Positions 4,081 through 29,591 of a stretch of 36,563 nucleotides of DNA are shown in pieces. The translations under genes were made by a program, and so were the position numbers. The notes under the pieces were generated by a model. It searched no databases and was not told the DNA's origin. It was given only the letters and a program-made list of their open reading frames with translations. The DNA comes from an uncultured bacterium (GTDB lineage Bacteria; Patescibacteriota; Gracilibacteria; BD1-5; UBA2023). The stretch lies in the NCBI GenBank assembly GCA_903908595.1, contig CAIVSN010000153.1:1-36563 (forward strand), in the 5' to 3' direction. Numbering within the stretch: the first letter of the stretch is position 1; each line of letters begins with the position of its first letter.

Positions 4081-6456
4081 TTAGTACTTTTTCTCCACCT
4101 TCGTCCCGTTGAGATAATAGGGGATAATCGTCTTATAATCCCACTTCTTGACGGTCGCGAAATACGTCGCTCCGATACCGGAAATCCCGACCCCGTGTCA
4201 GGCTTGAGCCTTGCCTTCGCCACCCGGATCCGCGACGGATTGGAGGTAGGCGATATCCTGGCAGGTCGTCGTGGCGGGCAGCTCTTTCTTCGCGACCCGG
4301 GCGTTGCAGTATTCGAGCGCGGAGAGGGTCCTTCCGCTCGATTGGCTGAAATACCATGGCTTGATGGGTTTTCCCTGGTACGTGATGATTTCCCCTCTGG
4401 TTTCCTTCGCGTACTGGATCGTGGAATCGGAGCGTTTTTCATACCCGTATCCGAGATATTTCTGGAAAACGTCCGGATCGTCCGATCCGTCGTAGGGTTT
4501 TCCGGGAAATTTGCGGTAGTCCGGACTCGTGTAGAACATGGCGTAGCTCCGGGCGGCGACGAGGATGGTTTTGGCTTTCTCGGCGTTTTCCCCGTTGCTG
4601 AATTCCGCGAGGCCCCGGAGATAGAGTTCGAGCGGGATCTCGTTGATGGCGATCAGCTTACCGTCTTCGACCCGGATTTCGATTTTCCCCCGGAATTCGT
4701 TGTCGTTATATTTTTTCTCCTTGTCCCAAGCGGGTATCCGTATCCAGTTGTTGATCCGGACGACCGTGGCACCGAGGGAAACGGTCTCGGTCCGGTATTT
4801 TTTGCCGCCCATGGTGGTCTCTACCTTGTTTCCGACTTTCTTTACGGATATTTTGTCGAATGCCACTTTTCCGGATTTTTTGTCCCAGCCGAGCACCGGG
4901 TTTCCTTCGACGGCTTCCAATTCTATTTTTTTCAGGACCGGTACGGAGAGCTTGATTCGGATGTTCGGTCCGTCGTTTGTGGCGACGTTCGGGGTCGCGG
5001 GATTGGTTTTGGGATCGGTTCTCGGGTTCACTATTACGATCGGTTTGGCCTTCTTGATGGTTTCCGGCCGGATCGTCGGATTGGCGTTGACGAGGTATCC
5101 TTTCGACGAAGCGTTCAGTTTTGGCAAGAGGCGGTCGTTGATTTCCGCGTACAGGTTGGCTCCGGGGCACGAGGTGAAGCCGACGTCCCGATGTCCCACG
5201 AGCCCCTTCATCTCATAATCGTGCGTCATGCATTCCTCGTCTACTTTGCAGGCTTTGTGCCCCGTCAGCGTGGTATTGGTATCGATCCCGTATTTTTTGG
5301 AAAGCGCGGTAAGGAATTTTTCGAGCGTCGCTTTCTGTTCCTTGACGAGTTTGTCCTTTTCGTAATTCCCGATGACGCTCACGCCGACCGTCCCCCGGTT
5401 GTTCCAGCTCGCGTGGGCGCCGACCGCGTAATCTCCGCCGGCCCGTCCCTCGTATACCACGCCCCGCTGGCCCACGACGAACTGATAGCCGATGTCTCCC
5501 CAGCCGCGAACGATGGTATGGTAATAATAAAAGGACCGTATGAGTTCCTCGTCGGAGAGCGATTTGACGTTGTCTTCCGCGGTATGGTGCACGACCATCT
5601 GCCGGACGCTCGCGGCTTTCTCTATCGGCCAGACGAGATCGTGGCCGTTTTCTTTCCAGATGATTTCGCTGACCCTGGATTGTTCGGGGAATTTTTCTTC
5701 GAGGCTGGCTTCGATCGCGATATTTTTCGCCAGTTGTTTTTTGGCGGCCTCGGTCGGCTTGGCAGCGGATTGTTTCTTAAAAATGTTTTTCCAGATTTCG
5801 CTGTCGGCATACCGGAGGTTTTCGTCCGCTCCCCATTCCGCGCGAGATACGATCGGAAACGCGCTTGGCGCGGCATGGGCCGTTTTCGCGAAGGCATCGG
5901 GATCGTAGGCGATTTTGCCGACGGAGCTCCGGGTATCGAGCGAGACCAGGTGGAGAACGGGATGGGTCAGGGTTTCGCAGCCGGAGCATTCTACCCGGAT
6001 TTCGTCGGTCGGTTCGAAGTGGATTGGCGCCGTGAAATAGGCTCCCCGTTCGGTTTCGTCGCCGGAGAGTTCCAAATCGGCATGTTTTTCCGTTCCGTTC
6101 GAGAAGATGGCGAAGGTTACGGCGTCTTCGCGGTCGATTTGGCTTTCCGTCTCCAATTCCACGACGAAGCTGTTCTTCGGGGATTCCAGTTTGACCGACG
6201 TAGCGAGCGCCAGTTGGCGGTATTCGTTCGCGTAGGTGTATTGGGTTTTCCATTCGATGGAAGTCGCGACGGGGGAGAGGTAGGGGGCGAGCAATACGGC
6301 AATCACGAATTTCGCGAGAAGCCCGTAAAAACGCGAACTCCTCGCCGATTTTTCCGCTCCTCGTTCAACGTGCGGATGCACGCCTCGCTTCGGTGCTCAA
6401 AATCGGCTTCGGATTTCATCGTTTTTACGGGCTTCTCGTTTTACAGGGGTTTTCAT
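4081..6456 (-). CDS. N-acetylmuramoyl-L-alanine amidase (PGRP/Amidase_2) fused to SpoIID/LytB domain
   Basis: 791 residues, predicted exported cell-wall enzyme. A hydrophobic signal/anchor helix is at about residues 46-62. The PGRP/Amidase_2 domain runs from about 204 (SRAEWGADENL) to 445, with zinc-ligand motifs VVHHTAED (about 288-295) and GHRDVGFTSCPG (421-432). The SpoIID domain covers about 605-780 (LYLRGLAEF, AARSYAMFY, FSQSSGRT). Under the standard code the protein would stop inside the SpoIID hallmark GHGVG; here that first Gly is UGA (4198-4200) and the protein ends at TAA 4081-4083. SpoIID proteins cleave denuded glycan strands, so one chain joins stem-peptide removal to glycan cleavage. 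Residues about 7-47, before the signal helix, are encoded by palindromic element copy A1. The ATG at 6456 is only 27 bp from the start of the divergent gene, so a later start is possible. Confidence 0.9.
6315..6438 (-). repeat. Palindromic element A, copy 1 (in-frame in the amidase/SpoIID gene)
   Basis: A 124-bp element with perfect 19-bp terminal inverted repeats (cgagaagcccgtaaaaacg and its complement) around an 86-bp core. The core has its own nested dyad ending in a tip hairpin, cgtgc-ggat-gcacg. It is read in frame with the host gene as NDEIRSRFGAPKRGVH followed by VERGAEKSARSSRF, including one UGA. Five further copies lie in the window. The strand given is the strand on which it is translated. 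Confidence 0.9.
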
Positions 6457-11221: not shown

Positions 11222-11857
11222 ATGACCCCATTAGCCCATCCTAACGATTCCCACCGGAACCCCTCCCTCGATCTCATCCTCTCTCGAACGCCTCCAACCT
11301 TCCCCGAAGCCACTGTAACGCTCCTTGAAGGTCTCCGCAACGAACGACTCAAAACCGGAACCCCCAACGTCTCCGACCGCACCGGAAGATTCCTGTACCA
11401 CCTCTGCCGCGACCGCGGGCACTCCCATATCCTCGAACTCGGCACGGCGAACGGATATTCCGGCATCTACCTTCTCGAAGCGATTTCGGGTTCGAAGTCG
11501 GGCCATCTGCTCACCATCGAAATCGACCGAGACGATTACCTGAATGCCAAGCGCAACCTCCATCCCTACCGCGACCACGTCACGCTCGTCCGCTCCGACG
11601 CGACCGAGTTCCTGCGGTCCGCGGGGGACATGCGGTTCGACCTGATCTTCATCGACGCCCTCAAATCCGCCACGCTCGGGCATTTTCTCCTGGCCCGCAA
11701 ACTGCTTAATCCCGGAGGCACGATCGTCGTTGACGACGTAGTCAAGTACTCGGGGAAAATGTCGGATTTCTACGCGTATCTCGAAGCGAATGCCATCCCG
11801 TACGCCATCGTCATGACGGATCCGGACGATGGCGTCATGGTTCTGGAACCCCGTTAA
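11222..11857 (+). CDS. SAM-dependent O-methyltransferase (class I, Methyltransf_3/24 type)
   Basis: 211 residues. Rossmann-fold methyltransferase with motif I HILELGTANGYSG (about 69-81), an acidic residue at the end of strand 2 (LTIEID), motif DLIFIDALKS (about 140-149) and LLNPGGTIVVDDVV (about 160-173). This pattern is typical of catechol/caffeoyl-CoA-type O-methyltransferases, where DALK and DDV contribute to metal and substrate binding. The substrate cannot be told from sequence. It starts 17 bp behind the VirB6-like gene. Its last codons and TAA stop lie in an extra left arm of palindromic element copy A2. Confidence 0.85.
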   Translation: MTPLAHPNDSHRNPSLDLILSRTPPTFPEATVTLLEGLRNERLKTGTPNVSDRTGRFLYHLCRDRGHSHILELGTANGYSGIYLLEAISGSKSGHLLTIEIDRDDYLNAKRNLHPYRDHVTLVRSDATEFLRSAGDMRFDLIFIDALKSATLGHFLLARKLLNPGGTIVVDDVVKYSGKMSDFYAYLEANAIPYAIVMTDPDDGVMVLEPR

Positions 11858-11867
11858 AACGCGAACT

Positions 11868-11989
11868 TGAACCCCGTTAAAACGTGAACTCCTCGTCAAA
11901 TTCTGCGTTCCTCGCTCAATGTACCTACCGGTACACCTCGCTTCGGTACTCGAATTCGACTTCGGATTTCATCGTTTTTTCGGGGTTCA
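11868..11989 (-). repeat. Palindromic element A, copy 2 (intergenic, with a duplicated arm)
   Basis: Arms tgaaccccgttaaaacg and cgttttttcggggttca (two mismatches in 17) flank an 88-bp core. The tip hairpin is tgtacc-tacc-ggtaca. A second copy of the left arm (gaaccccgttaaaacg plus cgaactt) stands just before it at 11846-11867 and supplies the TAA stop of the methyltransferase gene. It lies on the side of the gene where a terminator would be. Confidence 0.88.
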
Positions 11990-12056
11990 CGGGGTGGGTG
12001 GGGACCGAATATCGCCCCTCACGAATATCGAACGATTTTTCGAAAGACCTACCCCT

Positions 12057-12138
12057 CGAGACGGGGAATGGATTAGGTATTCCCGAGCTTGTCCGGCGCG
12101 GTATGGACCGAGGGAATTCATAATCCATGCCCGTCTCG
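12057..12138. repeat. Palindrome family B, copy 1
   Basis: Outer arms of about 27 bp (starting cgagacggg and ending cccgtctcg, with a few mismatches) enclose the 28-bp centre at 12084-12111, which begins gagcttgtccggcgcggt. The centre differs from copy 2 by one base, while the arms are unrelated in sequence. Confidence 0.8.
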
Positions 12139-12190
12139 CACGCCGCACGCCCGGAACCATCGAATGATTTTTCGAAACATAAACCTCCAG

Positions 12191-12267
12191 CGAGCCCATG
12201 GATATTGGGTTTCCCGAGCTTGTCCGGCGCGGTCTGGACCGAGGGAAACCCAATATCCATGGGCTCG
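12191..12267. repeat. Palindrome family B, copy 2
   Basis: Perfect 25-bp inverted arms (12191-12215 and 12243-12267; the left arm starts cgagcccatggatattggg) surround almost the same centre as copy 1 (gagcttgtccggcgcggt, then ctggaccgag). Confidence 0.88.
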
Positions 12268-12316
12268 CCCGAACCGCACATCCCCGAAAAATCCCCACCG
12301 ATTTCCCAATTCCAAT

Positions 12317-12402: not shown

Positions 12403-13665
12403 ATGATCGATATCAAAATCCTCCGCTCCCATCCCGAGCTCATCCGCGATTCCATCGCCAAGCGAAACCTCAAGGTAGACCTCGACGCGTTTTTGGCGCT
12501 CGATGCCATGCGCCTCTCGGAACGGCAGCAGATGGAGGACCTCCAAGCCCTCCGCAACCGGGTTTCCAAAGAAATTCCCACGATAGCGGATACCGCTCAG
12601 AAGCAGGCGAAAATCGCGGAAATGAAGGCCGTTGGAGAGCGGATTGCCACTATCGAAAGCAACCTCGCGTTCACGGAAGAAACGTACAACGGCATGCTCT
12701 ACAGCATCCCGAACTTCCTGGATCCGACCACCGCCATCGGCGCGGACGAATCCGGGAATACCGTGGAATCCAAATTCGGCGAACCGACGAAGTTCGATTT
12801 CGTGCCGAAGGCGCATTACGACATCGGGGAAGCCCGAGGGTGGATCGACATCGAGAAGGGCGCGGAAGTCTCCGGGGCGCGGTTCTGGTACCTCAAGGGG
12901 GATCTGGTATTGCTCCAGTTCGCCATTCTCCAATACGTCATGCAGGTTATGGTCGCAAAGGGCTTCCTACCGGTAATTCCTCCGTTCCTCGTGCGCGAAC
13001 CCGCGATGTACGGCACGGGATTTTTCCCGGCGGACCGGGCGCAGATCTACTCTGTCAACCCCGGGGAAGACAACCTGTTCCTCATCGGGACCTCCGAAGT
13101 CTCGCTCACGAGCTACCACGTCAAGGAAACCGTCAATGTCGATGCTCCGATCAAATACGTCGGGTATTCCCCGTGTTTCCGTCGCGAAGCCGGAACGTAC
13201 GGCAAGGACATGAAGGGAATCCTCCGCGGCCACCAGTTCGACAAGATCGAGATGGTCTGCTTCTGCAAGCCCGAAGATTCCCAGAAACTCCACGACGAAA
13301 TGGTCGCCGTCGAGGAATCCATCTGGCAGTCGCTCGGCATCCCGTACCAGAAGATCAACATCTGTTCCGGCGACCTCGGCAACCCCGCCATGAAAAAATA
13401 CGATCTCGAAGCCTGGATGCCCGCGCAGGAACAATACCGGGAAGTCACGAGCTGTTCGAACATCGGCACGTTCCAATCCCGTCGCCTCGAAATCAAGTAC
13501 CGGAAGGCCGACGGTTCCAGCGATTTCGTCCACACGCTCAACGGCACGACCATCGCCTTCTCCCGATGCCTCATCGCGATCATGGAAAATTACCAGAACG
13601 AGGACATGACGGTAAGGATTCCGAAGGTGTTGCAGCCGTTCATGAGCGGAAGGGAGGTGTTGTAG
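12403..13665 (+). CDS. serS: Seryl-tRNA synthetase
   Basis: 420 residues, the normal length for bacterial SerRS. It charges tRNA-Ser and tRNA-Sec. The N-terminal coiled-coil arm that clasps tRNA (LSERQQMEDLQALRNRVSKE and following) is followed by the class II core: motif 2 with CFRREAGTYGKDMKG and motif 3 with NGTTIAFSRCLIAIMENYQ. The ATG at 12403 fits the family start (MIDIKILRSHPELIRDSI). No in-frame UGA is needed. Stop TAG at 13663-13665. Palindromic element copy A3 begins six bases behind the stop and could end transcription. Confidence 0.97.
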   Translation: MIDIKILRSHPELIRDSIAKRNLKVDLDAFLALDAMRLSERQQMEDLQALRNRVSKEIPTIADTAQKQAKIAEMKAVGERIATIESNLAFTEETYNGMLYSIPNFLDPTTAIGADESGNTVESKFGEPTKFDFVPKAHYDIGEARGWIDIEKGAEVSGARFWYLKGDLVLLQFAILQYVMQVMVAKGFLPVIPPFLVREPAMYGTGFFPADRAQIYSVNPGEDNLFLIGTSEVSLTSYHVKETVNVDAPIKYVGYSPCFRREAGTYGKDMKGILRGHQFDKIEMVCFCKPEDSQKLHDEMVAVEESIWQSLGIPYQKINICSGDLGNPAMKKYDLEAWMPAQEQYREVTSCSNIGTFQSRRLEIKYRKADGSSDFVHTLNGTTIAFSRCLIAIMENYQNEDMTVRIPKVLQPFMSGREVL

Positions 13666-13671
13666 AGACCT

Positions 13672-13799
13672 CGGAAAATCCCGTTAAAACGATGAAATCC
13701 GAAGTCGAATTCGAGTACCGTAGCGAGGCGTACCGGCAGGTACGTTGAGCGAGGAACGGAAAATTCGACAAGGAGTTCGCGTTTTAACGGGATTTTCCG
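13672..13799 (+). repeat. Palindromic element A, copy 3 (intergenic, directly behind serS)
   Basis: Perfect 20-bp arms (cggaaaatcccgttaaaacg and complement) around an 88-bp core with tip hairpin cgtacc-ggca-ggtacg. The frame used by the intragenic copies is closed here by TAA in the arm and TAG in the core, so this copy could not sit in a gene. It probably acts as the 3' hairpin of serS. Confidence 0.9.
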
Positions 13800-26803: not shown

Positions 26804-28264
26804 TTACTTCCAATACATGTACTTCGGCAGCTGCGATTTCAGCAATCCGTTATGAACCGTTCCGAATCCCAGCGGAGCGCCGTTCCAGAGGACTTGGACC
26901 ATTCCAGACTCGTCAGTATCGCCGGTCGCGACCGGTAGCCCGCGGAGGAAATCCCGTAACATGTCCGGTTTCAGTTCGATTTTTGACAGGTTCCGGTGAA
27001 CGAAGTGGACCCCGAGCGGCGCTTGCGGTTCGAATACGTTCCCTTCGATCCGCCCGATGCGCATCCCGAACCGGATGGCGTATACCCGATCCAGTATCGG
27101 CGCGATATCGCCGGTCGATCGGATGAGGAGGATATCGTTCTTGTAGCGGTAGAGCTTCGCATCGGCCGGGAGTTCCGTACCGAGCGTTTCCAGGGCTTTT
27201 TCCACGGTTTCCAGGGCACGGTCGCACAGTACGCCAATGTCGCGATTCGGCTTGAAGGAAACCTCGCCAAAACGCGAACTCCTCGCCGAATTTTCCGTTC
27301 CTCGTTCAACGTACGAATGTACGTTTCACTTCGGTACTCAAATTCGGCTTCGGATTTCATCGTTTTGGCGAGGTTCCGGGGTGTATGCAATTATTTTTTT
27401 TGAAATCTTCGCGACGAAAAATCCTCCGGCGATTTCGGTGTGGGGCCAGAACCGTTTGGAGAAAACGACTTCGATGTCGTCACCGAATTCTTCCTTCGCG
27501 GCTTCGAGGACTTCTTCATTCTCCATCCGGTTGAGGGTACAGGTGGAATATACGAGCATGCCGCCCGGCTTGAGCGAGGTCAGTCCCGCGATGAGGAGCT
27601 TTTTTTGGAGCCGGGCAATCGTTCGGACGTTTTTGACGTTCCAATACCGGAGGCTTTCCGCGGCCTTGTAGCCGATGCCTTCGCCGGAGCAGGGCGCGTC
27701 GAGCAGGACGAGGTCGAAGCATTCCGGGAGCTCCCGGAACTGTACCCCGTTCATGTTGGTGACCGCGATATTGAGGAGCCCCATCCGCTCGATGTTTTCG
27801 AGGAGCGGCACGATGCGTTCCTTATTGAACTCGTTCGCGAAAACGAACGCGTTCGGGTAGTGTTCCGCGATTTGCGTCGTCTTGCCTCCCGGACTGGAAG
27901 CGATTTCGAGGATGCGGTGGGGTTCCGGATGGACGGCGCCGTCCGCGAGCAGCCAGACCGACATCGAGGCCGAGAGTTCCTGGATATAATAGTCTCCGCG
28001 CAAGTGTTCCGGGTTGGATCCGAGCGCGATGGTCGTGTCCTCCCGGTCGACATGGAACACGTGGCCGTTCGGCGTCGGTCCGAATTTCCACCCGACGGTC
28101 TCTTTATCGCTGACGAATTCGCCGATATCCCGCTTATTCGTGTTGATCCGGAGGGTTTTTTTTAGCGGGCGGAGCAGGCTTTTTTGGAACGCCCCGAATC
28201 CGTCCGCGTCCTCGCTGAAAAATTCGTTTTTGAAATATTCGAGGAACGCGGGATTGATGGACAC
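26804..28264 (-). CDS. RNA m5C methyltransferase (RsmF/NOP2/Sun family) split by an in-frame palindromic element
   Basis: 486 residues if UGA is Gly. The catalytic domain (1-296) has the SAM loop EIASSPGGKTTQ, the motif IV cysteine C192 in LLDAPCSGEG and the motif VI cysteine C242 in YSTCTLNRMENE, the pair diagnostic of m5C RNA methyltransferases. It ends with GGFFVAKISKK. Residues about 297-335 are element A copy 5, read in frame through two UGA codons. The C-terminal PUA-like RNA-binding part follows (EVSFKPNRDIGVL to PKYMYWK), with the typical GVHFVHRNLSK and APLGFGTVHNGLLKSQLP. Without recoding, the gene would look split into two. The start is GTG 28264, 13 bp behind smpB. It probably modifies rRNA or tRNA. 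Confidence 0.88.
27260..27375 (-). repeat. Palindromic element A, copy 5 (in-frame inside the RNA methyltransferase gene)
   Basis: 15-bp perfect arms (aacctcgccaaaacg and complement) and an 86-bp core with tip hairpin acgtac-gaat-gtacgt. It is translated as NDEIRSRIGVPKGNV followed by HSYVERGTENSARSSRF, two of the glycines from UGA. It sits exactly between the catalytic and RNA-binding domains. Confidence 0.92.
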
Positions 28265-28772: not shown

Positions 28773-29591
28773 CTATTTCCCGAAGTTCCGTTTGGCGCTT
28801 CGCAGGGATTTCAGCGAGGCGTCGAATTCGGCTTCTTGGAAGTCCGGCCAGAGCGTGTCGGTAAAATAGTACTCGGAATATTCCGCTTGGTAAAGGAAAT
28901 ATCCGGAATGCCGGATGTCGCCACCGGTCCTGACGATCAGGTCGGGAGGCGGGAACGCGCCGGTGTCGAGGTATTTGAGGAAGGATTTTTCGTCGAGCGT
29001 ATCGGGATCCGCTCATTCTCGGATGGCTCGCTTCACCGCTCGTACGATTTCGTCCTGGCCGCCGTAGCCGATCGCGAGGATGAGGATCATTTTGTCGAAG
29101 GAGGCGGTGCGGTCGCGGAGTTTGCGGAGGGAATCTCGGAGGGTCTGCGGCAAGAGTTCCTTATCGCCGACCATCTCGAACCGGATGTTGTTTTTGACGC
29201 AGCTCGCCTCGATTTTTCCAAGGAATTCCTCGAATAGGGCGTAGAGATAATTCAATTCCTGTTGGCTCCGTTCCAAGACGTTCTTTTTCGCCAAGGCCCA
29301 GAAACTGACGATTTCGATTCCGTTTTTTACGCAGAGTTCCACGATTTCTTCGGTGGTTTCGGCTCCCCGATGGTGTCCGAGGTTCTTGGCGAGATTTTTG
29401 GCGGTGGCCCAGCGGCGGTTTCCGTCCATTATAAATCCAATATGCCGGGGAACTTCGTCAAAACGCGAACTCCTCGCCGAATTTTCCGTTCCTCGTTCAA
29501 CGTACGGAGGTACGTTTCACTTCGGTACTCAAATTCGGCTTCGGATTTCATCGTTTTTACGAAGTTCCGGGATTTTCGATGAAGTATTCAT
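28773..29591 (-). CDS. uppS: Undecaprenyl diphosphate synthase with an inserted palindromic peptide near the N-terminus
   Basis: 272 residues. Makes the C55 lipid carrier for peptidoglycan synthesis from isopentenyl and farnesyl diphosphates. The hallmark PRHIGFIMDGNRRWA is at about residues 49-63, with the catalytic Asp in MDGNRRW. GHHRGAE, FEMVGDKELLP, AIGYGGQDEIV and DLIVRTGGDIRHSGYFLYQ follow, ending near LWPDF. One UGA reads as Gly near the C-terminus (AIREGADPD). In most UppS proteins this hallmark lies some 40 residues nearer the start; here residues about 8-48 are element A copy 6. ATG 29591 (MNTSSKIPELR) lies 2 bp behind the stop of ruvX and is the only good start upstream of the element. 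Confidence 0.95.
29449..29568 (-). repeat. Palindromic element A, copy 6 (in-frame in uppS)
   Basis: Arms ggaacttcgtcaaaacg and cgtttttacgaagttcc (one mismatch) around an 86-bp core with tip hairpin acgtac-ggag-gtacgt. Translated NDEIRSRIGVPKGNV followed by PPYVERGTENSARSSRF. The core is nearly identical to copy 5, so the insertions are probably recent. Confidence 0.92.

Follow-up and report, generated by a model that had tools for sequence, protein, structure and literature searches.

The palindromes upstream of the seryl-tRNA synthetase gene serS in the window (the whole stretch of 36,563 nucleotides analysed here) are two of about 24 related hairpins in the same draft genome, and these are probably the centre of MITE-like non-autonomous transposable elements, with a tip that is recognised and arms that are kept paired. 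The hairpin consists of a left foot GCGAGC (in most copies), a variable stem of 20-30 bp and a near-constant tip of ~27 nt. It is probably a selfish repeat in which the tip matters to spread and the arms need only pair, and the pair in the window goes back to an ancient tandem duplication of such a unit, located upstream of serS.

The hairpin pair upstream of serS

The palindrome pair described in a sequence-only reading of this DNA is real, and both members could be placed within the following arrangement.

12027-12158, + strand: duplication unit 1 (~131 bp), which holds hairpin W1; global alignment with 12159-12290
12027-12045, + strand: copy 1 of a 19-bp direct repeat, ATCGAACGATTTTTCGAAA; repeat search
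12057-12138, + strand: hairpin W1, with imperfect arms of its own sequence; RNA fold and DNA fold, z=-5.6
12085-12111, + strand: core (tip) of W1, GAGCTTGTCCGGCGCGGTATGGACCGA, within the 29-base pattern that recurs with <=3 mismatches at 22 genome places
12159-12290, + strand: duplication unit 2 (~131 bp), which holds hairpin W2; global alignment with 12027-12158
12159-12177, + strand: copy 2 of the 19-bp direct repeat, ATCGAATGATTTTTCGAAA; repeat search
12190-12215, + strand: left arm of W2, 26 nt, pairing with the right arm at every position and starting with the foot GCGAGC
12216-12242, + strand: core (tip) of W2, GAGCTTGTCCGGCGCGGTCTGGACCGA, the same sequence as the core of the MITE copies
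12243-12268, + strand: right arm of W2, 26 nt, pairing perfectly with the left arm
12403-13665, + strand: serS, the downstream context; PF00587 2.5e-39, PF02403 2.5e-22

Hairpin W2 spans 12190-12268, with 27 nt between its two 26-nt arms; the mismatch-free pairing claimed earlier for this copy holds, over 26 bp instead of 25 bp. The longest perfect close inverted repeat observed (26 bp) compares with a best of 13 bp in 60 first-order Markov surrogates of the window, and the folding z-scores (-5.6 for W1, -9.3 for W2) were equalled by none of the shuffles. The centre is shared as proposed, yet the common stretch extends beyond the 28 bp given for it, to 37 nt of which 36 are identical (12080-12116 compared to 12211-12247). 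Upstream of both hairpins the 19-bp direct repeat was recovered as well, with 18/19 positions identical.

The arms of W1 and W2, said to be different sequences, have indeed diverged, but homology between the two units has not been lost. To the right of the core, the flanks align better than 99.9% of permutations (p=0.0005), which implies that the arms were not built independently; alignment in the left arm region is weak (permutation p=0.06). Judged from these alignments, the pair is an old tandem duplication of the whole ~131-bp unit, as opposed to two separate insertions. Homology along the whole unit suggests a single ancestral hairpin for W1 and W2, in which the tip has since changed less than the arms.

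Genomic copies, arm groups and MITE context

The host assembly is a draft MAG of 2.41 Mb in 186 contigs, with 5.02% contamination. Its size of 2.4 Mb compares with ~1 Mb in most relatives; the excess may owe something to the expansion of repeats, to a mixed bin, or to both. Based on pattern searches and on a covariance model built from nine lineages of the hairpin, the centre is far from confined to the window: the 29-base pattern that includes the tip recurs, allowing <=3 mismatches, at 22 genome places, of which 20 lie beyond the window, and the covariance model adds two further diverged places, C60 and C142, to give a family of ~24 copies. By eye, these two resemble old MITE elements in which the tip has decayed. 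The genes beside the hairpins (serS, a TetR-like gene and others) are unrelated to each other.

The search in relatives, suggested along with the original observation, returned no copy of the tip from 146 relatives or from 287 other genomes of the class. Neither was the tip found in the other 26 genomes of the family with the covariance model, nor in GTDB genome contigs or viral contigs with a strict pattern. Phage sequences returned nothing by blastn, and the single 25-bp match in the plasmid collection (E=0.8) is at chance level. We found no description of this hairpin family in the literature.

Private arms for each copy, as the sequence-only reading expected them, fail for most of the family. 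Arm type CAGGTGAACGTATTTTTCGTTTTCC is common to 14 copies, all of them centres of one MITE family; arm type GGGAGGATGGCGTTTTCGTTTCC occurs in 4 copies (one degraded), which are the centres of a second, related MITE; and arm type GGGATTCGTNTTTTCATCCTCC is found in 2 copies, C94 and C57. Arms of their own are present only in the window copies and in two decayed MITE fossils. The opposite outcome considered in that reading, arms shared among the other copies, therefore describes most copies and not all of them.

Eighteen of the hairpins lie inside MITE families. The MITE copies are ~160 bp long and lack a transposase gene; both related families read TAATACCAAATT... at the left and ...AATTTGGTATTA at the right, and terminal inverted repeats TACCAAATT...AATTTGGTA are present on the MITE-borne copies. 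Among the elements with both outer flanks readable, six (L003, L015, L016, L019, L042 and L052) have a 3-bp target duplication, with the same TAA or TTA on both sides, and two (L004 and L009) have outer flanks that are not identical 3-bp TAA/TTA. Two of the six, the hairpin-less L042 and the deleted element L052, thus show the duplication too. Recognisable MITE ends were found neither at W1 and W2 nor at C94 and C57, and these four might be free-standing hairpins or elements with a function for the host.

The foot motif GCGAGC stands at the left start of most hairpins, W2 included, and is also seen in the MITE copies. At C103:4426-4492, a MITE copy is without the central hairpin precisely at the GCGAGC motif, perhaps because the site never received one or because it was lost by deletion between flanking GCGAGC repeats. 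No inversion of the spacer relative to the MITE ends was seen.

Regarding the enzyme of mobilisation, the terminal repeat of the MITE is carried by two IS-like fragments (C152:9600-9837 and C172:1-126), where a 56-aa open frame beside the matching end runs off the contig end; this frame has no Pfam match, and no relatives of it were found. A decayed relative is located at C161:17850. The sole DDE_3 gene was rejected as partner transposase, being without the MITE ends.

Covariation, element A and the explanations weighed

In the alignment of nine lineages, 87% of the stem cells pair, and sliding the structure by one column lowers pairing to 60% or less. Both sides have changed in 16/27 stem pairs (as good in 0/500 shuffles), a count that rests on nine lineages only and on an alignment that was not fitted to the structure, although the structure was derived from that same alignment. 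With DNA energies, the tip adopts a T shape with two mini-hairpins in most copies tested, whereas RNA energies mostly give one stem; the two mini-hairpins are favoured by a single compensated pair, seen in one fossil, but 101/500 shuffles score equally. In the 14 recent copies the arms differ little and all differences are one-sided, from which compensation appears to come later and not instantaneously.

MITEs do not usually have a conserved tip. That the tip has stayed the same among lineages with diverged stems suggests that it is recognised in its folded state. It would be kept since some trans-acting factor, required for the element to move or persist, recognises it as folded DNA (or RNA). 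The stem would be constrained only to pair; selection, template switching between the arms during replication, or both would restore pairing after mutation. The enzyme of mobilisation is likewise a presumed component of this scheme.

Element A forms hairpins of ~125 bp at five places in the window.

6315-6438, 11868-11989, 13672-13799, 27260-27375 and 29449-29568: copies of element A

A direct repeat of 23 bp, 91% identical, lies at the left edge of one of these copies (11843-11888), and its copy 1 includes the stop codon of an O-methyltransferase gene (11222-11857). Another palindromic repeat, with ends AGTCTCCAAGCAAAAATAA, is present at L041/L042 and at L062, where it interrupts an element A copy; it looks like a third MITE family.

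The likeness to element A noticed in the sequence-only reading is borne out by a common pattern of fixed centre and differing arms that pair, found for element A at 160 places in the host genome and 6 in the same-genus genome. The general process deduced from this likeness, in which the host inserts a fixed core and, site by site, copies the flank in inverted orientation to make the second arm, would agree with arms that vary between lineages around a fixed core, with the left arms of element A (distinct in 24/24 sampled copies) and with the rarity of G-T wobble in its arms, where most differences are compensated and 4 G-T cells and 27 mismatches occur among 287 cells. It fails for most copies, however, as their arms move along with the element. 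The arm pairs common to 14, 4 and 2 copies speak against it, and for the MITE copies it is refuted; the two window copies stem from a tandem duplication whose flank still aligns; and the arm columns of element A, in 24 aligned copies, hold an ancestral consensus (majority residue frequency of 0.68 compared to 0.39 expected). These columns are homologous, hence the arms of element A are diverged descendants of one ancestral arm and not copies of local flanks. Private-looking arms, therefore, need not imply a new insertion process, and we regard flank copying as very improbable. The strong compensatory change in element A involves the arms and part of the core, and the scarce G-T intermediates fit a maintenance that acts on DNA, for example template switching. 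A mechanism for both families, with the centre passed on faithfully and the arms re-synthesised by snap-back or template-switch copying at mobilisation, so that each insertion would receive a freshly matched stem and the T-shaped tip would be the recognised substrate, has a slim chance of being correct.

A structured RNA or regulatory leader (of serS and other genes), with a tip that binds a ligand or a protein and arms that covary as RNA helices, would be in keeping with the fixed tip on a covarying stem, the intergenic location upstream of serS and the high stability of the hairpin as RNA. Opposed to it, both DNA strands of the hairpin fold about equally well, the window contains no Rfam match at gathering score, and promoter- or terminator-like sites were not found nearby. 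Neither the same-genus genome nor any other relative searched contains the tip, the position upstream of orthologous genes is not conserved, the neighbouring genes are unrelated and the majority of copies reside in MITEs, all of which makes an RNA function unlikely. A serine or aminoacyl-tRNA leader was dropped as a candidate, for other copies adjoin unrelated genes. That the repeat is instead REP-like, with a Y1 (HUH) transposase moving its foot GCGAGC and hairpin in folded single-stranded form, draws on the conserved foot beside a palindrome, which is the plan of REP elements (PMC8266576), and on the T shape with two mini-hairpins that the DNA fold of the tip assumes in most copies; yet Y1_Tnp (PF01797) had 0 matches in the draft genome in a search that was positive in 5 control genomes, and most copies possess DDE-type terminal repeats together with a 3-bp target duplication, leaving this explanation with little probability. 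Insertion of the core alone, as a mini-element entering the loops of pre-existing palindromes, would explain why the core ends abruptly at an identical boundary in different stems. The old MITE fossils L110 and L113 have diverged cores, though, which makes the core as old as the elements, and no core-less stem was present among the loci retrieved; we consider such an origin extremely unlikely. The MITE-centre reading, with a recognised tip on a stem kept paired, is thus the one we favour.

Relation to known repeats and significance

Prokaryotic MITEs have been reviewed (PMC10969869), and the present family resembles them in being short, non-coding and bounded by terminal inverted repeats with a short target duplication, as well as in being intergenic, strongly folding and restricted to one genome that has related ends on IS-like fragments. 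It differs in the central 27-nt tip, which is near-constant between families with diverged stems, and in having some solitary hairpins that lack the ends. REP elements have a conserved foot motif adjoining a palindrome (PMC8266576), and the likeness to REP/TnpA-REP (RAYT) systems extends from the foot before the palindrome and the many intergenic copies to a stem that is freer to vary than the recognised bases (PMC8266576). In contrast to these systems, the foot is GCGAGC and not GTAG, the hairpins measure ~80 nt, a Y1 transposase match is lacking and most copies reside in DDE-type MITEs. Template switching during replication homogenises the arms of inverted repeats and offers a known route for two arms to co-change and stay complementary (PMC8604942, PMC8794818). 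It is, however, a mutational process and not an element, and the recent copies analysed here keep uncorrected one-sided changes.

If the proposed reading is true, two unrelated repeat families in one genome constitute a natural data set in which the tip is constant and the stem is free to change while pairing is retained. The importance of sequence would then be separable from the importance of pairing in small mobile elements. The dozens of copies bear on selection as opposed to replication template switching, a distinction debated for the evolution of hairpins.
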